From Chloroflexota bacterium (GTDB lineage Bacteria > Chloroflexota > Chloroflexia > QHBQ01 > JADMIH01): a stretch of DNA of 12,477 nucleotides. A program made the translations under genes and the position numbers. Where the stretch lies: positions 1 through 12,477 of the forward strand of contig JADMIH010000116.1 in the NCBI GenBank assembly GCA_015478675.1, written 5' to 3'. The notes under the pieces are model-generated. The model made no database searches, was not told the DNA's origin, and saw nothing but the letters and a program-made list of their open reading frames with translations. Below are positions 1,942-11,953 of this stretch, one piece after another; the stretch's first letter is position 1, and the number at the start of each line of letters is the position of its first letter.

Positions 1942-3291
1942 TTATCCCAACACCAGCTGCAGGCCCGCTGGATTGAGCGAGACCAGGTGGCGATTGACCC
2001 GTGGCGCGACACCAGCTTGCGCACCAACAGCAGCCAGTTGGTAGGCGGTGTTGACGTCTGGCCAGCCACCGATCATCATGTTGAGCGCGGCCTGCCCCTC
2101 ACGGTTATCCGCGTTGTTCGTGTGGTTGCCCCACCCAACAATCCAGGGGAAGACACCTTCTTCGATGTCCTGCCCGTACTGGCGGCGCATGCGTTCGTAG
2201 AAATCGAAGAGCGAGAGGTTGGTCCCTGACGCGCTGCCGAATTTGTAGAACGAGTTCTGGCCCACCGAATCCATGTCGAGCTGCGCGACGGAGATGTTGC
2301 TGATCTGCGCCGTTTTGCCTTGCACCTGCCCGTCCACCACCACATCCAGGACAAGATAATGTTGCAGCAGCGTGGCGATGCGCCCTCGGTTGATGTTGCC
2401 TGCCACCAGGTTGCTAATGGTCTGGTCCTCAATATATTGTACGGTTGGTTCCGAGGAGAGGTCCAGCGACAGCGCCGTGGGAGACCAGAGGTTGGTGCCG
2501 TCACGGTACTCCACATCCGCCTGGACGGTGCCCGTGACGGTCACAGCCGCGCCGGTGCCAGCGGTCGTCGCTACCGCATTGAGAATCGGGTCGTTACCGA
2601 GGGGAGCTGGGGCACACGTGAGCACGAGCTGAGGTTTGGTGCCCGCGGACATCATCGGGAGCATGCCGTAGGGGGAGTTTTCGTTCAGAGGAGCAAGAGG
2701 AATTCGGAACACAAATTTCCAGGTATTGGCGCCCGTCGCCACGGGAATTGGTCCGTTGAGGACGTTCTGGATGTTCGCGTCTTGTGTCCCTGACAGGACA
2801 CTTGACGGTTCGAGCGATCGCGAGTATCCGCGCAGGAGACCACTGACGTAGCGCAGAATGTACGGCCTAAAATTGTGCTGGATCCCGTTCAGCATGATTT
2901 GGCAGCGATCAAACAGCGCCAATTGCGCGAATTGATTGACGGCGTATGTGGCGCCGGTACCAGCCGCACACGTCACGGTGAGATTGCACGTCACCACAAT
3001 CGCTTCGGCCCAGGCGCCGCCAGCGGTTGGGAATTCGTACGTTAATGCGGTGCCAGCCGAGTAGGCGGCGTTCACGCCACCACCGGCGGGAATCATCGGC
3101 GCGAGACGTTTGATTGCCAGCGCCATGTACTGCGCGTTCTGCCCCGCGACGTACTGTTGATACGCCGCCTGCTCACCTGACATCAGCGGCGCGGGAAGCG
3201 AGCTAAAATACGCGGCGCGGTCGGCTGGCGACATAGCGGCGAGCTGCGACGCGGTCATAATTTGTTGGGTCGTTGCGCTTTGTTGCGGCAT
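1942..3291 (-). CDS. Major capsid protein, probable double jelly-roll fold
   Basis: The ATG at 3291 (MPQQSATTQQ...) is chosen because the GGAGAG ribosome site ends just before it; a GTG 12 bases upstream would place that site inside the gene. The 449-residue product starts with a helical, Ala/Gln-rich arm (1-65), followed by long beta-rich stretches. Visible landmarks are LALFDRCQIMLNGIQHNFRPY (about 124-144), FRIPLAPLNENSPYGMLPMM (195-214), KPQLVLTC (219-226), a Thr/Ala/Gly-rich beta region (235-262), and a second beta-rich half with LVLDVVVDG (313-321), ISNISVAQLDMDS (330-342) and an amphipathic FDFYERMRRQYG (362-373). The IPL...ENSPYGMLP segment and two beta domains are typical of tectivirus-like capsid proteins; PRD1 P3 is about 395 aa. 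The neighbouring packaging ATPase supports the assignment. The fold is inferred, not seen directly. Confidence 0.82.
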   Translation of the reverse strand: MPQQSATTQQIMTASQLAAMSPADRAAYFSSLPAPLMSGEQAAYQQYVAGQNAQYMALAIKRLAPMIPAGGGVNAAYSAGTALTYEFPTAGGAWAEAIVVTCNLTVTCAAGTGATYAVNQFAQLALFDRCQIMLNGIQHNFRPYILRYVSGLLRGYSRSLEPSSVLSGTQDANIQNVLNGPIPVATGANTWKFVFRIPLAPLNENSPYGMLPMMSAGTKPQLVLTCAPAPLGNDPILNAVATTAGTGAAVTVTGTVQADVEYRDGTNLWSPTALSLDLSSEPTVQYIEDQTISNLVAGNINRGRIATLLQHYLVLDVVVDGQVQGKTAQISNISVAQLDMDSVGQNSFYKFGSASGTNLSLFDFYERMRRQYGQDIEEGVFPWIVGWGNHTNNADNREGQAALNMMIGGWPDVNTAYQLAAVGAQAGVAPRVNRHLVSLNPAGLQLVLG

Positions 3292-3329
3292 TTTTCTCTC
3301 CACAAATAGAGGGGGTCGGTCAAAATGGG

Positions 3330-6307: not shown

Positions 6308-6532
6308 ATGGAACGGAAGAAACGCGGGCGCCCGCCCATGCGGAGGGACGGTGCGCAGACGGTGTACTTCCGGCTGCCCCCCGCGCTCGTGGCGGAAATG
6401 GATGTCTGGATTGACGCGGGGCGCGCGCGCGGGGAGACCCGCTCCACGTGGCTCGCGGCGCGCCTCGAAGAATGGGTCGCTACACACGATCAACCAGATG
6501 TGGACGCAACCAGCACTGGGGGAAACACGTGA
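6308..6532 (+). CDS. Ribbon-helix-helix (CopG/Arc-type) transcriptional regulator
   Basis: The 74-aa product starts at an ATG with a strong GAGGAGGAAAG ribosome site. Residues 17-22 (QTVYFR) fit the DNA-contacting beta strand, 24-37 (PPALVAEMDVWIDA) the first helix, and 43-58 (ETRSTWLAARLEEWVA) the second helix with a typical [ST]-R-S turn; this is the layout of RHH repressors, which work as dimers. The N-terminal KKRGRPP is AT-hook-like and may add minor-groove contact. The C-terminal 14 residues look unstructured. It is the first gene of the rightward operon and overlaps the next gene by GTGA. It likely represses its own promoter through the three GTCGAATGT boxes, and possibly the divergent structural promoter. 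Confidence 0.85.
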   Translation: MERKKRGRPPMRRDGAQTVYFRLPPALVAEMDVWIDAGRARGETRSTWLAARLEEWVATHDQPDVDATSTGGNT

Positions 6533-6903
6533 ACAACAACGATACCAACGACGCCAACAACCCTGACCTCCCGGCCCACATCCTCGTCATGGCGGGCATG
6601 ATCTGGCAGGCCGCGCGGCGTGAGTACCTGAGCGCCCCACACGAGGAAAACCCGAAACGCCGCCGCCAGCTTGCCACCCTCAGGCGCCTGATATCCAACA
6701 TCACTGACGAGTTGGAGGACGAACTCCATGCGCGCGACGTGTGCAGCATGGACCTGGTGGCGCGCATGGAGGTTATCGGGGACGTGGTGGACGGCATCAG
6801 GCTCGCGGTCGTGCCCATGAGTGACAGCGAGGAGGCGATGATCGCGTCTATCGTGGAGCACATGCGTCTGCTCCGGCTACGCCCCACCGACAGCCTCAAC
6901 TAG
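6529..6903 (+). CDS. Hypothetical helical protein, 124 aa, GTG start
   Basis: The frame is open upstream, but the GTG at 6529 is chosen: it overlaps the RHH stop (GTGA) and follows a GGGGGAAAC ribosome site. The product begins with an Asn/Asp-rich stretch (NNNDTNDANNPD), then is almost wholly alpha-helical and charged: LVMAGMIWQAARREYL, a basic RRRQLATLRRLISNI, an acidic TDELEDELHARD, and EVIGDVVDGIRLAVV. No membrane helix, no cysteine pattern and no known family recognised. Position in the regulator operon suggests an early-expressed protein; a regulatory or replication-accessory role is speculative. Confidence 0.7.
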   Translation: MNNNDTNDANNPDLPAHILVMAGMIWQAARREYLSAPHEENPKRRRQLATLRRLISNITDELEDELHARDVCSMDLVARMEVIGDVVDGIRLAVVPMSDSEEAMIASIVEHMRLLRLRPTDSLN

Positions 6904-6905
6904 CC

Positions 6906-7505
6906 ATGCGCTATTGGTATCGCCCGCCAACAGCAGCCGAGTGGCTCGGACTCTGGTTGGCCTATGGCCCCCTCAATCGGGGCCACCTCCCCGCCCCAAT
7001 TGGGGGGTGGGGGACACACCTGGCGACGTATCCGACGTGGATACCGATCAGTCAACAGACACACACAGAAAAGAGTAAAGCAGTGAAGCGGTTTTCTCAG
7101 ACACAAGCGGCACAGTACACAGGCGGCGAGTGGGTCAACAAAGCAGCGCTCGTGGGGCACATCACCGTGATCACGGGAGTCACGCTACAACCGGCCACGT
7201 TCCCTGATCCCAACAAGGGTCGGACACAAGAGGCGGTTTTTTCGCTGAAGCTCGGTGAGGACATCATCGCCGAGGGGTTCCAGGACGCACCGATGCGCTA
7301 CGTCTCATCAAGCGCCGCTCGAAACGTACGCATCGCGGAAAACGCTAAAGCCGGGGACTGGCCATGTCTGGTGGAGTGGGTGCAGTCGCCGCCAACCGGC
7401 AATCTGCCGCATGGGGTCATCACAATCGCAGACCCCTCCCCCAGTAACGCGGGTCTGTGCGCGCGCCTTGAGCGGATGATAGAGGGGGGAATGGTGACCA
7501 ACTAG
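6906..7505 (+). CDS. Hypothetical early protein, possibly ssDNA-binding, up to 199 aa
   Basis: The ATG at 6906 lies two bases after the preceding stop, so coupled translation is possible, but it has no ribosome site. The first 59 codons show no third-position GC preference and contain two GC-rich palindromic elements, so the true start may be the GTG at 7083 (VKRFSQTQAAQY..., about 140 aa), which has AAAAGAG upstream. The core is beta-rich: VNKAALVGHITVITGVTLQP (about 77-96), QEAVFSLKLGEDIIAEGF (109-126), a mid Ser/Ala/Arg turn, and WPCLVEWVQSPPTGNLPHGVITIAD. This recalls OB-fold single-strand DNA-binding proteins of protein-primed viruses, but the match is impressionistic. It ends just before a strong terminator. 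Confidence 0.65.
   Translation: MRYWYRPPTAAEWLGLWLAYGPLNRGHLPAPIGGWGTHLATYPTWIPISQQTHTEKSKAVKRFSQTQAAQYTGGEWVNKAALVGHITVITGVTLQPATFPDPNKGRTQEAVFSLKLGEDIIAEGFQDAPMRYVSSSAARNVRIAENAKAGDWPCLVEWVQSPPTGNLPHGVITIADPSPSNAGLCARLERMIEGGMVTN
6966..7005. repeat. Two adjacent GC-rich hairpins
   Basis: GGCCCC (6966-6971) pairs with GGGGCC (6979-6984) across a 7-base loop, and ten bases later CCCCAATTGGGG (6994-7005) is a perfect 12-bp palindrome. They lie between the 124-aa gene and the GTG at 7083. If translation begins at 7083, this stretch is an intergenic leader in which the hairpins could act as an attenuator, mRNA-processing site or protein-binding site. No U-tract follows, so a simple terminator is unlikely. 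Confidence 0.5.
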
Positions 7506-7526
7506 GCACCTCGGAACGAACAAAAA

Positions 7527-7571
7527 GGCACCGTCCGCATAGGGACACGATACCCTATGCGGACGGTGCTT
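7527..7571. terminator. Bidirectional intrinsic terminator between convergent units
   Basis: GCACCGTCCGCATAGGG (7528-7544) and its exact reverse complement (7553-7569) form a 17-bp perfect stem with an 8-base loop. On the minus strand it is followed by CTTTTTGTT, a good U-tract for the leftward membrane-protein unit. On the plus strand it is followed by the weaker TTGTTA, serving the rightward RHH operon, which ends at 7505. Confidence 0.88.
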
Positions 7572-7616
7572 GTTACACACAACGAGTGAGAGGAACGGCT
7601 CACCTGTTTCAGTATA

Positions 7617-7919
7617 TCACGTATGCCTCTCGCGCGCAACCCCCGCCTGATACGCCTCATAGTCCATGCGGGTCATCAGGGTCCACACCTCCCGCTCCAC
7701 CTGGTCCAGGTGATCAATGAGCCGTTCCGCGTTGGCAAGCGTTTCAGTGCTGGCGTCCTCCCGCATATCCGCGATTGTGTACACCAGGTCAACACAAGCT
7801 GGACGCAGCGCGTCATAGAGAGCGCGAAGGGCTGCCGTGCCAGGCCCCCAGATGATGACTCCGCTCCGGTCAGTGAGCACCGTCCGACCGCGTACGTACG
7901 GCGGCTGATAGGATGTCAT
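7617..7919 (-). CDS. Hypothetical helical protein, 100 aa
   Basis: The ATG at 7919 (MTSYQPPYVRGR...) is preceded by AAGGGA at good spacing. A TTG at 7937 overlapping the previous stop (TTGA) is a possible longer start, adding six residues. The N-terminal part looks like short beta strands (TVLTDRSGVIIWGPG) and the rest is helical: ALRALYDALRPACVDLVYTI, then ETLANAERLIDHLDQVEREVWTLMTRMDYEAY, which could pair as a coiled coil. No known family recognised. It is the last gene of the unit that starts at 9040 and ends about 50 bases before the terminator. Confidence 0.68.
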   Translation of the reverse strand: MTSYQPPYVRGRTVLTDRSGVIIWGPGTAALRALYDALRPACVDLVYTIADMREDASTETLANAERLIDHLDQVEREVWTLMTRMDYEAYQAGVARERHT

Positions 7920-7933
7920 ATAACGCAATCCCT

Positions 7934-9040
7934 TCAACTGTTTGCCGTGACAGGGACGCTGTTCGGCGTGTGTTCGGCAGGTGTTCGGTATTGTTCGGCT
8001 GGCGTGGCTGGAGACCCCTTGAATTCCGGGTTTGCAGCAAGCGAGTGTTCGGCAGGTGTTCGGTGTTTGTTCGGTGTTTGTTCGGTCTTTGACGACCCGT
8101 GTCCGAGCACGGAACCACGCGCTACTCCACTACTCAGCAGTGGGACCACAGCCGACGCGGGTATCAACCAGTCGCCGGTACCCGCCTCGGACGTAACGCC
8201 CAACTCCCCCCGCTCCCCCGCGCGTCGTACCGCCCGTCGAATCAGCGCCTGCCCGCTCGCGTCACGTATACCCAGAACACTGTATAGATCACGCGCGCGA
8301 TACACCGTGTCAGGTTCCTTTCGGAGGAGTCCGACGATTCTTTGGAGCTGCGGGTTGTCAGGCAGAGCCGCGCCAAGCGCAGCGACATCACCATTCGTGT
8401 GCTTGTCATTCGCTATGCGGGTGCGCGCGAGTGCCAGTCGCGCCTCCAGCCCATGCATCGCGATCGCCTGCCCCGTCGCCATGGGGTCATGCTCCTCGCT
8501 GAAAATGGCGCTCATATAAAAAACCACCGGGGGCGCCGTCACAACCAGCACGATCTCAGTAGCGACCGTGGTGAGACTCACATGGGTCGCCGAATTCAGC
8601 GCGAAAATCACCCCGTAGACCGCACTCACCGTTCCACAAAAAACCGAAAATCCGAGTTGCAGTCGCATCTCACGGCGACACCGCGCTATGGCCACTCGTT
8701 TGCGACTGCTCAGCAACGCCGTCTGCTCCAGGAGGCGCGCTCCTCGTAGACGCGCGCTCGGTGTATAATCCCCGCTCGCCTCTATATACGCGAGGTCATG
8801 CCGCCGCGCGGCCCAGCTCGCCGCACTAGCCGAGTTGATAATCTCGGTGCAGACCAGTATACCCAGGACCGCCAGCACCTCAATGGCCAGACGCAAACCA
8901 AACGGCCAGAGCACATACGCCACCGTCATGGTGCTGATCACACCAGCGAGTCCCCTCACAATCATCGAAAGCAGAAAAATCGCATAGCTGGGCATCAGCG
9001 CGTATGCGCTAATCCATTGCTGCACACGACGTCCAGACAT
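7934..9040 (-). CDS. Four-TM membrane protein with C-terminal winged-helix-like domain and repeat-bearing tail
   Basis: The start at 9040 (MSGRRVQQWI...) has a GGGGAGGCG site; the extended frame would run through the promoter region and is rejected. The 368-aa product has membrane segments at about residues 19-45, 47-69, 129-149 and 156-180. Between TM2 and TM3 lies a basic helical loop (78-128). After TM4 comes a soluble part with LRKEPDTVYRARDLYSVLGI...ALIRRAVRRAGERGELGV...GDWLIP (239-294), whose helix-helix-wing rhythm resembles a winged helix. The last 50 residues are low-complexity with two RTPAEH repeats, encoded by the TGTTCGG array. No known family recognised. A membrane-tethered DNA-binding or sensing protein is an attractive guess: it could hold viral DNA at the membrane. 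Confidence is high that it is a gene, low for function. Confidence 0.8.
   Translation of the reverse strand: MSGRRVQQWISAYALMPSYAIFLLSMIVRGLAGVISTMTVAYVLWPFGLRLAIEVLAVLGILVCTEIINSASAASWAARRHDLAYIEASGDYTPSARLRGARLLEQTALLSSRKRVAIARCRREMRLQLGFSVFCGTVSAVYGVIFALNSATHVSLTTVATEIVLVVTAPPVVFYMSAIFSEEHDPMATGQAIAMHGLEARLALARTRIANDKHTNGDVAALGAALPDNPQLQRIVGLLRKEPDTVYRARDLYSVLGIRDASGQALIRRAVRRAGERGELGVTSEAGTGDWLIPASAVVPLLSSGVARGSVLGHGSSKTEQTPNKHRTPAEHSLAANPEFKGSPATPAEQYRTPAEHTPNSVPVTANS
7960..8085. repeat. Eight TGTTCGG iterons in two clusters at 11-bp spacing
   Basis: Exact TGTTCGG heptamers begin at 7960, 7971, 7982 and 7992 (steps 11, 11, 10) and again at 8046, 8057, 8068 and 8079 (steps 11, 11, 11). 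The clusters start 86 bp apart. A longer 19-bp stretch (7971-7989) is repeated exactly at 8046-8064. The array lies in the 3' end of the membrane-protein gene. Eleven is not a multiple of three, and the heptamers fall in all three codon phases, so protein repetition alone does not explain them. Helical spacing suggests one protein bound repeatedly on one face of the DNA. Confidence 0.85.
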
Positions 9041-9088
9041 TCTACCACGCCTCCCCTTTTTTCGTTGTGTGCGGGATGTCCGCACGTG

Positions 9089-9120
9089 AGTATAGTACCA
9101 CAATGTTCTGTTATTGTCAA
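9089..9120 (-). promoter_or_regulatory. Leftward sigma70 promoter for the membrane-protein unit
   Basis: On the minus strand a perfect -35 TTGACA (9115-9120) is followed after 17 bases by TACTAT (9092-9097), overlapping TATACT (9089-9094) at 20-base spacing. Transcription should start near 9083. An inverted repeat GTGCGG (9069-9074) / CCGCAC (9080-9085), 5-base gap, lies right at or after the expected start and could be an operator or leader hairpin. Confidence 0.75.
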
Positions 9121-9139
9121 ACGAGCATGGATGTGGTAC
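9095..9139. promoter_or_regulatory. Symmetric operator across the divergent promoters
   Basis: GTACCACA (9095-9102) and its exact complement TGTGGTAC (9132-9139) are 8-bp arms centred on base 9117, which is also the centre of the shared -35 palindrome TTGTCAA. Each arm overlaps a -10 region. A dimeric regulator bound to the arms, perhaps the HTH protein encoded at 9186, could control both directions at once. Confidence 0.6.
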
Positions 9140-9145
9140 GATACT
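9114..9145 (+). promoter_or_regulatory. Rightward sigma70 promoter for the HTH gene
   Basis: A -35 box TTGTCA (9114-9119) is followed after 17 bases by TACGAT (9137-9142), overlapping GATACT. The -35 shares its bases with the leftward promoter on the palindrome TTGTCAA (9114-9120). The gene start at 9186 follows with a GA-rich ribosome site. Confidence 0.7.
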
Positions 9146-9185
9146 CCTATGACCGCGTTGCGCGACATAAGAGAGAGAGAGACAC

Positions 9186-9461
9186 ATGGAATCCACCGAT
9201 ACCCCCCTGCCACCGGAGTACCACTGGCTCAGTGAGGAGGCGCACCCCAACCCGATGTACACCATTCCGGAACTCGCGCACTATCTGGATTATGCCCAAC
9301 CCACCATATCGCGCTGGGTACGACACGGGCATTTTCCGGGGGCCGTTGCGCTGCCCAACTCTAGTGTGCGCATACCGCGATCAGCCATAATCGCGTTCCT
9401 GCTCGCCATGCCGGGGTTACGTCAGGGTGGGGGAGTGGACGTGGATGTGGAGGGGGACTAG
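9186..9461 (+). CDS. Excisionase/MerR-like helix-turn-helix DNA-binding protein, 91 aa
   Basis: The ATG at 9186 follows an AGAGAGAGAGAGA purine tract. Residues 25-72 fit the small winged HTH of the AlpA/excisionase (HTH_17) type: YTIPELAHYLDYAQPTISRW (25-44) for the two helices, VRHGHFPG leading to the wing, then VRIPRSAIIAFLL (61-73), the usual 'R[IV]PRSAI..FL' ending. The tail is Gly/Val/Asp-rich. These proteins act as DNA-bending cofactors or as transcriptional regulators. No integrase is visible, so a regulator of the divergent promoter just upstream is more likely than a recombination factor. It is monocistronic and ends 12 bases from the convergent polymerase stop. Confidence 0.82.
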   Translation: MESTDTPLPPEYHWLSEEAHPNPMYTIPELAHYLDYAQPTISRWVRHGHFPGAVALPNSSVRIPRSAIIAFLLAMPGLRQGGGVDVDVEGD

Positions 9462-9472
9462 GGGCTAGCCCC
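9461..9472. terminator. Palindrome GGGGCTAGCCCC between convergent genes
   Basis: This perfect 12-bp palindrome fills the gap between the HTH stop (9459-9461) and the polymerase stop (9474-9476). It can fold only as a 4-bp stem with a 4-base loop and has no U-tract, so its role as a terminator for both converging transcripts is a guess from position; it may instead be a protein-binding site. Confidence 0.4.
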
Positions 9473-9473
9473 A

Positions 9474-11393
9474 CTACCCCGTGTTGGCGACGGCGCGCGT
9501 CTCACCACTCAACTGGACCGGGTAGACCGCGCCGGTGCCGTCGGCTCGCCACTGCTCGGACCGCTCCAACCGCGAGTAGGAGCGACGACGGTCCTCGGTT
9601 TTCGCGCGCCCGCGTTTGAGGGAAGCGAGCGTGCTGTTCATGCTCAGGTACACGACCTCCACCGCATGACCCGCGAGCGCCAGCGCGTGCGCCTCCATGG
9701 CGGGCATGTTTTGTGCTACACCGTCCACACGCACGGGGATGCTGTCCTGATTCAGCAAACTCCGAGGGATGCCTTTCGCTCGGTCAATCAACTCCCCGCT
9801 GTCCGTTTGCGCCTGGTAGTTTTTCGGGCCGCCGCACTGAAACCACCTATAATGATGTTCGATTTTCACATCACCATAGGTGCGCGATATCCGGAGCGAC
9901 CCGTCGGCTAGGGCCGACTCCAGGTTGCGGGCTGGGAACACGACACTATCGGTGTCGCCGTAGACCCCCTCCAATCGCCGCGCCAACTGAGCGAGACGGA
10001 CACGAGCATGCGCCGTGATAAACGCTGCCCACACCGGTTGGAGGTAGGGTTCATCAATCGTCGCTGCCTGGGCGTACAGGCAGGGCACGAGGGCACCCGT
10101 GTGGGGGTCCACCACGGGTGTCAGGCCCTCGCGGGGACTCTCGGTGAGGACATAATTCATGGACGCGGGCTGGCTTCCGAATTTTCCGTAGAGAGAATTA
10201 CGCATGATTTTGACGGCATAGCCCAGCGCGTCCCCCTTATGGTCCATTTCCAGGGCCTGGGCCTGCGACAGAAATTGCTCGAACGGGTGGCCCATTTCCT
10301 CAAAATAGCAACCGTCCTGTACGACGTAGGAGTACCCACGCCGCCGCGCCTCAACCAGTTCCACACTGGTGACGGTGGCGGAAAACACACCGGTGGGTTT
10401 CAGCGAGGGAACGCCATTCGAGCCGATGAACGGATAGCGCTCGCTCGCGGGCACACGCAGCTCCACGCGATAAATCCCCGGATATCCGACCACCTCGTGG
10501 TCGGTCAGGATGCCCCGTCCGACCGGAACCCCCTGCGCCATTGCCCAGGCATACATCGCGTTGACATCCACATGCACCATATCATACTGGCGGTCACACC
10601 GAGTAAAAATAATCAGACCCCCCTTGTAGGCCTCACGACCCAGCGCGTCTACACGGGGATGTTGTCGCCAGTACGTCACGTCCTCCGGCAGACTGCGGCG
10701 CCACGCTCGCATAGCGGTCCCACCTGCGGTGTAGCCGGTGTTGATATCGAAAAGTTGGAAAATGGTGTCCTTAAATCGCCGTACCGCCACGAGCAGCCCG
10801 CGCACATCACGCGCGAGATACGCGCGGTCCTCCTCCGAATCGGGTGAAAAGTAATTAGTGGACCCGTCAGGAAGCACCCACGACCGCGACAGCTTCACAA
10901 GCTCCGGCGCAAGCGCACTCGTGACACGACTCAGGGCGTCAGGTATGAGGGCGTACGTGTCCAGCAAAAGATATTTTTGCTTATCGCGTTTGAGCACGAT
11001 CGCGATTATCCGTCCGTCGCTGCGACAGAGGAGATAATGTTCCAAACCAGGATAATCGTCGCGATGCGCAATGAGGTATTCGACGAGGTAGCGGTAATCG
11101 TATTCGCCGCCATTGTGCGCAACCCAGACGCTCCCGCGATTGCGTTTGGCGAAAATGGCCGTGACCCACTCGCCTACATCGGAAAAATAGTTTGTGTAGT
11201 CTGGGTCGGCTTCGGATACCCACGCGCCCAGGACAAATGTCCCTCCGAGTGTGGCCTCACCAGGCACTCCGGTCTCAATATCTACCGCGATAATATTTTT
11301 CTGGTCCTGTGGACGATGTGGTAGCGACGTAAGGCACCGGCGTTTTTTTTGGCACCAATACGCCTCTTTCCCCTGGTGGTCGTGTGGTGTCAT
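9474..11393 (-). CDS. Protein-primed family B DNA polymerase
   Basis: This 639-aa enzyme carries all landmarks of the pPolB family. The 3'-5' exonuclease motifs are Exo I DIE (38-40), Exo II HNGGEYD (93-99) and Exo III YLARD (192-196). The YxGG motif is YKGG (256-259). Polymerase motif A is DVNAMYAWA (276-284), motif B KIMRNSLYG (395-403), motif C YGDTDS (478-483), and the late lysine motif is PKNY (523-526). Insertions between A and B and between B and C leave room for TPR1 and TPR2, needed for terminal-protein contact and strand displacement. The start at 11393 is chosen because it overlaps the previous stop as ATGA; a start at 11435 would overlap further. There is no ribosome site, so it is probably coupled to the upstream gene. 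It implies a linear genome replicated from protein-capped ends. Confidence 0.95.
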   Translation of the reverse strand: MTPHDHQGKEAYWCQKKRRCLTSLPHRPQDQKNIIAVDIETGVPGEATLGGTFVLGAWVSEADPDYTNYFSDVGEWVTAIFAKRNRGSVWVAHNGGEYDYRYLVEYLIAHRDDYPGLEHYLLCRSDGRIIAIVLKRDKQKYLLLDTYALIPDALSRVTSALAPELVKLSRSWVLPDGSTNYFSPDSEEDRAYLARDVRGLLVAVRRFKDTIFQLFDINTGYTAGGTAMRAWRRSLPEDVTYWRQHPRVDALGREAYKGGLIIFTRCDRQYDMVHVDVNAMYAWAMAQGVPVGRGILTDHEVVGYPGIYRVELRVPASERYPFIGSNGVPSLKPTGVFSATVTSVELVEARRRGYSYVVQDGCYFEEMGHPFEQFLSQAQALEMDHKGDALGYAVKIMRNSLYGKFGSQPASMNYVLTESPREGLTPVVDPHTGALVPCLYAQAATIDEPYLQPVWAAFITAHARVRLAQLARRLEGVYGDTDSVVFPARNLESALADGSLRISRTYGDVKIEHHYRWFQCGGPKNYQAQTDSGELIDRAKGIPRSLLNQDSIPVRVDGVAQNMPAMEAHALALAGHAVEVVYLSMNSTLASLKRGRAKTEDRRRSYSRLERSEQWRADGTGAVYPVQLSGETRAVANTG

Positions 11394-11953
11394 GGGTGGA
11401 CCACACGCAGCGGTGGCGGCGCGGCAATTCGCCAATAAACCGTATACAGCAGGATTTCACGAAACAGCAAGCTGCTCTCTCGTTGGACCTCATCCCAATG
11501 AATACTATCCCGGTCGGTGGAGGGCATGACGGTCCGATACTCTGGGTCGCTCGGCTCGTCACCGCCGCCTGACATGCCCGGTCGCAGGATGCCGAGCACC
11601 GTTACAAAAATGACGACAAGGCCGCGCCCACGCTGAATACCACGAGCGAACGCGCGCGCCTCCTCAATTGTCTCAAAACTCGCGAGGAGCCACTGCCCGC
11701 GTTTGCTAATCACGACATCAGCACCACCGGGTCGTGTTCTCCCCCGGCGACCGCGTCCAGGTCCAGGCGGCAGACCCGCTTGCTTCCGCGCGGCGGCCTG
11801 CTCCTCATTCGATCGAAACCCCTGCGCATGCAGTCGCCCATAGCAAACATCATACTGCCGACGACTGATGATTTCTCCCGTGGTGTCATGGACGTAGCGG
11901 CGGGCTTTATCACCGGGAATGCGATGAAACCCAGCGGCGGGCGGGTCTGCCAT
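11390..11953 (-). CDS. Basic 187-aa protein, candidate terminal protein
   Basis: The ATG at 11953 (MADPPAAGFH...) follows a GGGGGT site, and its stop overlaps the polymerase start (ATGA). The first 75 residues are basic: ARRYVHDTTGEIISRRQYDVCYGR (17-40), a charged helix, then a Gly/Arg/Pro-rich linker (GPGRGRRGRTRPGG, 64-77). A small alpha/beta segment follows (VVISKRGQWLLASFETIEEARAFARGIQRGRGLVVIF, 80-116), then an acidic linker and a helical C-terminus with SLLFREILLYTVYW (161-174). Terminal proteins of PRD1, Bam35 and phi29 are encoded next to the polymerase, are basic and carry a priming Ser, Thr or Tyr; those are about 245-266 aa, so this would be short. Candidate priming residues include Tyr170 and Tyr173, purely as guesses. 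Position is the main argument. Confidence 0.75.
   Translation of the reverse strand: MADPPAAGFHRIPGDKARRYVHDTTGEIISRRQYDVCYGRLHAQGFRSNEEQAAARKQAGLPPGPGRGRRGRTRPGGADVVISKRGQWLLASFETIEEARAFARGIQRGRGLVVIFVTVLGILRPGMSGGGDEPSDPEYRTVMPSTDRDSIHWDEVQRESSLLFREILLYTVYWRIAAPPPLRVVHP

Follow-up and report, generated by a model that had tools for sequence, protein, structure and literature searches.

Helically phased heptamers within the gene of a predicted wHTH membrane protein: a possible membrane address in a viral genome

The window, by which we mean the whole stretch of 12,477 bases under analysis, carries eight copies of the heptamer TGTTCGG in two helically phased clusters. They are set within the gene of a membrane protein that features a predicted winged helix-turn-helix (wHTH) just ahead of the residues encoded by the repeats. 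The repeats very probably constitute a genuine, though putative, protein-binding array. The best explanation we can offer, and offer tentatively, is that the protein recognises, by its wHTH, the array lying within the very gene that encodes it, and thereby tethers the viral DNA to the membrane.

A phased array within a coding sequence

An earlier note on this DNA had described eight TGTTCGG words in two phased clusters inside a coding sequence, and an exact search agrees: all eight lie on the plus strand between 7960 and 8085, and no other exact copy occurs on either strand of the window. Measured from word start to word start, the first cluster (7960..7998; starts at 7960, 7971, 7982 and 7992) has steps of 11, 11 and 10 bp. 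After a step of 54 bp the second (8046..8085; starts at 8046, 8057, 8068 and 8079) follows with three steps of 11 bp. The 47-bp stretch between the clusters (7999..8045), delimited by the word positions, is not AT-rich in base composition; GC content is 0.50-0.62 in the 50-bp blocks covering 7900-8149, and no AT-rich tract adjoins the array. Copies of TGTTCGG with one mismatch number 42 and are scattered across the window.

On the coding (minus) strand the word reads CCGAACA, and its copies fall in codon phases 1, 0, 2, 1, 1, 2, 1 and 0, being translated as TEQ, PNK, HRT, AEH, AEQ, YRT, AEH and PNS (residues 319-361 of 368). All three phases are thus used, as the note had observed, and a protein-level repeat fails to explain eight words spread in this manner. 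Of 1000 dinucleotide-preserving shuffles of the window, 0 contained any 7-mer repeated three times in succession at steps of 10-12 bp, against two runs of four in the window itself. The three phases, the varied spacers and this chance test lend support to the earlier suggestion that selection acts here on the DNA rather than on the protein.

Chance, tandem slippage or a protein-level repeat, an explanation already disfavoured, is thus the most improbable of those we weighed. Some duplication is evident in a 27-nt stretch common to both clusters (93% identity), which indicates that partial duplication contributed to the array, and several TGTTCGG arrays in other viral contigs have uniform, minisatellite-like spacers. 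However, four of the six short spacers in the window's array differ from one another, and simple slippage, like chance in view of the shuffles and like protein-level repetition in view of the codon phases, explains the array poorly.

The host protein and its neighbours

The gene that hosts the array (7934..9040, minus strand) encodes a protein of 368 aa for which hydropathy and fold models suggest four hydrophobic segments, a wHTH and an array-encoded tail. The hydrophobic segments (residues 20-38, 51-69, 130-148 and 163-181; with their loops 8498..8983, minus strand) are predicted from hydropathy only. Twelve K/R residues fall in the loop between the second and third segments, from which we infer that this loop and the C-terminal part of the protein are cytoplasmic.

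Single-sequence fold models predict the wHTH at residues 236-303 (8132..8335, minus strand), with pLDDT averaging 71-86 in blocks of ten residues across the domain core. It is placed directly before the tail (residues 304-368; 7937..8131, minus strand), which was delimited by translation and fold model. In the full-length model, whose overall confidence is low (pTM 0.28) and which was used for the tail and wHTH only, the tail lacks secondary structure from residue 310 on and its pLDDT is mostly below 50. From these fold models we place a wHTH just ahead of the iterons with moderate confidence. The array begins at 0.86 of the host open reading frame (ORF), and seven residues follow its last codon.

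Searches for relatives of the host protein returned little. Structural searches with the wHTH model gave weak matches only; Pfam gave no match at E <= 1, and PHROG gave one, to a family of unknown function at E 0.13. No relative was found in viral_contigs (single-protein search), in INPHARED or in PLSDB, and among the best 7998 candidates scored in a protein database the protein matched only itself.

Downstream of the host gene lies a gene for a 100-aa protein of unknown function (7617..7919, minus strand), the ATG of which follows the end of the host gene by 14 bp and the array by 40 bp. The two genes likely belong to one operon, and a terminator-like hairpin follows the 100-aa protein gene (7528..7569, minus strand). 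Upstream, a divergent promoter-like pair with sigma-70-like hexamers occupies 9088..9146: the minus promoter, TTGACA-17-TACTAT, faces the membrane-protein gene (promoter-like site 9092-9120), and the plus promoter, TTGTCA-17-TACGAT, faces the gene for an HTH_17 or excisionase-like DNA-binding protein (9186..9461, plus strand; PF12728, E 1.2e-9). An exact 14-bp element, GTGGTACKATACTC, recurs in both promoters with its orientation reversed, a hint that the genes for the membrane protein and the HTH_17 protein are controlled jointly.

This neighbourhood bears on the main rival to a tether. On that view the array would serve some other DNA-binding protein as an operator or segregation site, the foremost candidate being the HTH_17 protein and the alternative the small protein at 6308..6532 (plus strand). 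The latter, labelled RHH in the earlier note, has no Pfam match and weak PHROG matches only (one CopG-like, E 0.24). The HTH_17 protein might line up head to tail on the repeats, the array might control the 7617-7919 gene, or it might act in partition independently of an ATPase. Precedents for such behaviour exist. BldC and RdfS, both wHTH proteins, are described as forming head-to-tail oligomers on DNA, in the case of BldC on direct repeats one turn apart (PMC5859096, PMC11963761). According to the account in PMC3098194, the stbDRs of R388 form two sets, each of five 9-bp repeats with two bases between neighbours, giving 11-bp steps, and confer plasmid stability together with StbA, the ATPase StbB not being required. 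The window resembles the first in encoding an HTH_17 protein and the second in having two repeat sets at 11-bp steps (four and four, with one step of 10). The array also stops 40 bp short of the next start codon, and a TGTTCTG (9104-9110), one mismatch away from the array word, falls in the spacer that separates the two hexamers of the minus promoter, though it is one of the 42 such copies in the window.

These likenesses are of working rather than of membership, as is that to phi29 discussed below, and the differences are considerable. Where BldC is concerned, the array lies outside the gene of the HTH_17 protein, and the repeats in the promoter region of that gene are others: the divergent promoters have GTGGTACKATACTC in common, and exact TGTTCGG is absent from them. 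The stbDRs flank a promoter with five 9-bp repeats per set, whereas the window has four 7-bp repeats per set in coding sequence, at the 3' end of a gene whose promoter-like site is at 9092-9120. No promoter-like match was found in the 40 bp between the array and the downstream gene, which itself starts only 14 bp past its neighbour. Lastly, were another protein the binder, the embedding of the array in a wHTH gene would be coincidence. On balance we consider another binder rather unlikely. The centromere-like site proposed in the earlier note belongs here as well; such a role is possible, although no ParA-like ATPase was recognised among ten scanned window proteins.

Phased arrays in other viral contigs

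Scanning viral_contigs for three TGTTCGG at 11 bp (first step 11 or 12) returned 30 contigs, with locus GC contents from 0.25 to 0.67. Two control words that match TGTTCGG in base composition, GTCGTTG and TTGCGTG, gave phased arrays in 37 and 7 contigs, respectively. That GTCGTTG is found in more contigs than TGTTCGG indicates that this type of array recurs without enrichment of the word, and we rejected the notion that TGTTCGG is an origin word of a special, enriched kind. With steps of 10-12 bp allowed, the TGTTCGG tally rose to 60 contigs, many with 12-bp steps and uniform spacers; the 30 contigs so added were left out of all counts save the membrane survey below.

Host ORFs, defined as ORFs that cover the array and reach at least 120 aa, were present at 22 of the 30 TGTTCGG loci and 33 of the 37 GTCGTTG loci. 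In 18 of the 22, CCGAACA lies on the coding strand, the orientation seen in the window, and CAACGAC, the complementary reading of GTCGTTG, does so in 32 of the 33. These strand counts retain two hosts with the array within their first few codons (L030, L176) and three cut by the locus end (L002, L154, L178). In most hosts the array starts at about 0.3-0.57 of the ORF, with more protein behind it.

Replication-labelled PHROG families (E <= 1e-5) matched 8 of 11 singly scanned CCGAACA hosts, which consist of ten representatives of our choosing (eight matched) and L010 (no match). The labels of the eight are DnaD-like helicase loader and O-like or other initiation protein, and at E <= 1e-3 phrog_2514, a DnaD-like helicase loader family, was matched by 12 of the 22 hosts. 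Compared with annotated phages, one host (L008) matches lambda O via its C-terminal half, and the annotated DnaD-like helicase loader of Lactobacillus phage BH1 has three CCGAACA at 11 bp. Among five annotated relatives of one host, one, phage BH1, has the CCGAACA array, three have other phased words and one has none; words other than CCGAACA at 11-12 bp occur in a record named Hydrogenophilus phage vB_LmoS_C996 and in two Listeria phages, and Lactobacillus phage JNU_P2 has no phased array. For CAACGAC, replication-labelled families (E <= 1e-5) matched 14 of the 19 deduplicated hosts scanned singly, and four match nothing. Two of the 21 deduplicated hosts, L144 and L147, fell outside these single scans, L144 being matched elsewhere as a replisome organizer (E 2.4e-17). 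In-ORF phased arrays are thus mostly found in replication genes and in one orientation relative to the gene.

The remaining host of the 19 (L175, 1317-3548) is a transposase of the Mu type. Its N-terminus reads as HTH, and from residue 54 on its own reading frame holds the array (1481-1558) of phased GTCGTTG words, with three different spacers. The layout is hence not limited to origins. We take the N-terminal domains of array-bearing initiators to be DNA-binding wHTHs, in part from reading the sequences; among the 33 CAACGAC hosts, few have a domain that Pfam recognises as HTH-type (HTH_29 in two). Within the viral contigs examined, phased arrays commonly follow a DNA-binding domain encoded by the same gene.

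Where a protein recognises the array inside its own coding sequence, one would expect the region preceding the array to change with the word. The helix pattern S/T-x-Q-x-x-R-T-A precedes the array in 23 of 32 CAACGAC hosts and in 0 of 19 CCGAACA hosts. Deduplicated, with upstream segments shorter than 40 residues left out and the phage BH1 protein (L134) added to the CCGAACA hosts, the pattern is present in 14 of 21 CAACGAC hosts against 0 of 10 CCGAACA hosts (Fisher p 0.00046). The subset that looks DnaD-like gives 5 of 6 against 0 of 6 (p 0.015). These p values are optimistic because the pattern was chosen after inspection and the sequences are related. By eye, a CCGAACA host (L006) shows the same contrast with similar CAACGAC hosts such as L144 and L145. 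A wHTH recognition code, by which the pre-array segment would change with the iteron word, is possible. The window's helix lacks the CAACGAC pattern and the CCGAACA hosts have no visible common signature, so the argument does not apply to the window directly: the contrast supports the layout rather than identifying the window's binder.

Across 121 in-ORF arrays, two of them the window's own, credible membrane segments were found in the window's host only. The other match to membrane segments (L102) was discarded as low-complexity sequence. We also considered a further contig (L018) as a second case and rejected it, as its membrane protein is not like the window's and its array has three copies with one spacer. 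Its region 6644-9945 holds an integrase, an excisionase-like HTH protein, a 401-aa protein with four hydrophobic segments and then the gene with the CCGAACA repeats.

TGTTCGG arrays of another kind were seen as well. In two contigs (L004, L021) the array is flanked by two long phage genes that look like those of a terminase and a portal, and in a third (L003) it lies beside the second gene of such a pair; these three arrays, with one or two spacer types, are probably minisatellites. A single match among 398 genomes from the phylum of another locus (L076, Exiguobacterium) proved to be a perfect 12-bp minisatellite.

Initiators, membrane anchors and the proposed tether

The lambda origin sits in the middle of the O gene (PMC7466680), and lambda O and DnaD-like initiators carry a DNA-binding domain followed by direct repeats in one reading frame. 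The window's protein likewise has helically phased iterons in its own gene. It differs in its N-terminal membrane domain and in having only seven residues behind the array, in a setting without an AT-rich tract, without detected homology and with a family-B DNA polymerase of the virus's own. The comparison of its wHTH with eleven DnaD-like hosts by hhalign gave a probability of 0.1, that is, no similarity, in what is a weak test from a single sequence.

On these grounds an internal replication origin, another of the roles proposed earlier and here conceived as lambda-O-like with a membrane-bound initiator, has lost ground, and we judge it unlikely. The succession of DNA-binding domain and phased iterons is indeed that of an initiator. 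However, seven residues behind the array leave no helicase-recruiting domain, the GC content noted above provides no AT-rich tract, a virus with its own polymerase argues against such an origin, and no helicase, helicase loader or primase family was recognised among the ten scanned window proteins. Alternatively, the 3' part of a tailed-phage initiator may have been captured behind a membrane domain and persist as a relic with no present function, which would account for the word, its orientation and the order of domain and array being as in tailed phages. We regard this as very unlikely, given that eight exact copies with varied spacers would be hard to maintain without selection and that the wHTH has no sequence similarity to DnaD-like hosts.

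Membrane anchoring does have precedent in a protein-primed phage, and this favours a tether. The membrane-associated proteins p1 and p16.7 of phi29 have been proposed to anchor protein-primed replication, p16.7 working via the terminal protein and displaced single strands, as summarised in PMC4974454. Hydropathy and fold prediction for the window's protein would fit a membrane organiser of DNA of the p16.7 type, with a cytoplasmic DNA-binding domain on an integral membrane protein. We know of no iterons in the p16.7 gene.

Of the three roles offered in the earlier note, the membrane-protein tether thus gains the most, from the predicted wHTH before the array and from a layout common in viral contigs. 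By analogy with tailed-phage initiators, the protein's own wHTH is probably the binder, a reading favoured by its predicted place just upstream of the array in the same protein and by a tail predicted to be unstructured. The array would then act in cis, recognised by the cytoplasmic wHTH that its own host gene encodes. Copies of the wHTH would sit head to tail on one helix face, four per cluster, the clusters lying about five helical turns apart. With the hydrophobic N-terminal half in the membrane, the viral genome would be fastened there at one point. Such a point would most likely serve to organise replication, packaging or inheritance, and occupancy of the array may additionally dampen transcription of the operon.

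Tethering to the membrane is conceivable, if slightly less than an even prospect. It is favoured by the occurrence of exact TGTTCGG nowhere else in the window. It is weakened by the position of the array at 0.86 of the ORF, where most hosts have about 0.3-0.57, and by a wHTH that is a single-sequence model with weak structural matches and no detectable resemblance to the DnaD-like hosts. Perhaps, then, the protein is a self-addressed membrane anchor, whose wHTH reads repeats within its own reading frame and ties the genome to the membrane. If so, a wHTH with its in-frame address would be a portable module, coupled to helicase loading in tailed phages, to a transposase in one Mu-like element and to the membrane in the window, and the lambda O principle of an address in the protein's own gene would here serve membrane anchoring instead of the start of replication. 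With an array inside a gene, a single read shows both a protein and its site, and such arrays may offer a hint for decoding pairs of wHTH and iteron, albeit from a pattern recognised post hoc. Among the literature matches listed, no title or abstract opening described iterons inside the gene of a membrane protein.

The virus and its relatives

The earlier note had assumed a protein-primed virus that replicates from its ends. The polymerase is compatible with this, being a family-B enzyme of the DNA_pol_B_2 type (9474..11435, minus strand; Pfam E 8.4e-30), but the ends of the window carry neither an exact direct repeat nor an inverted repeat without gaps, and no terminal protein was identified in the window. 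The contig is probably partial, since the nearest relatives of its polymerase and capsid-like protein lie on contigs as long as 24,333 and 29,612 bases. Three pairs of a polymerase relative and a capsid relative agree in the length of their longest contig (24,333, 23,975 and 29,612 bases), and the two members of each pair presumably share a contig. Scans of the window for tRNA and Rfam families returned nothing.

The protein at 1942-3303 is taken as capsid-like and has no significant Pfam match. It has at least 84 relatives besides itself (E <= 0.001), and the polymerase at least 52 (E <= 1e-5). The group is thus well represented at the protein level, yet poorly known. No relative of the capsid-like protein was found in the IMG/VR scan (viral_contigs) or in INPHARED; the name of one relative derives from an Anaerolineae MAG. 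A search with the capsid-like alignment matched 1 of 400 genomes in the phylum of one locus (L059, Chloroflexi), on a contig of 4,756 bases which ends before any membrane gene like the window's. In class samples, which overlap with the phylum sample, it matched 0 of 396, 0 of 177 and 1 of 29, the last being the same genome.

As a single protein, the window's polymerase had no match in viral_contigs, while a search with the alignment gave 27 and 38, in total 65, loci, mostly of distant relatives. None has a CCGAACA array of at least three in phase, which weakens the tether reading; pairs of CCGAACA at 12 bp in two of them (L042, L048) were read as incidental. Runs of any word, as three 7-mers at 10-12 bp, occurred in 4 of 66 loci (the 65 and L143) and in 1 of 325 shuffled ones. 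A further helically phased array in this kind of virus was seen in a polymerase relative from a Saccharimonadales MAG (L058), where six TTGAT stand at exact 10-bp steps (7399-7453). It is intergenic, directly before an ORF (7471-7839) and upstream of an ORF that is capsid-like by position only, and so occupies the position of a promoter.
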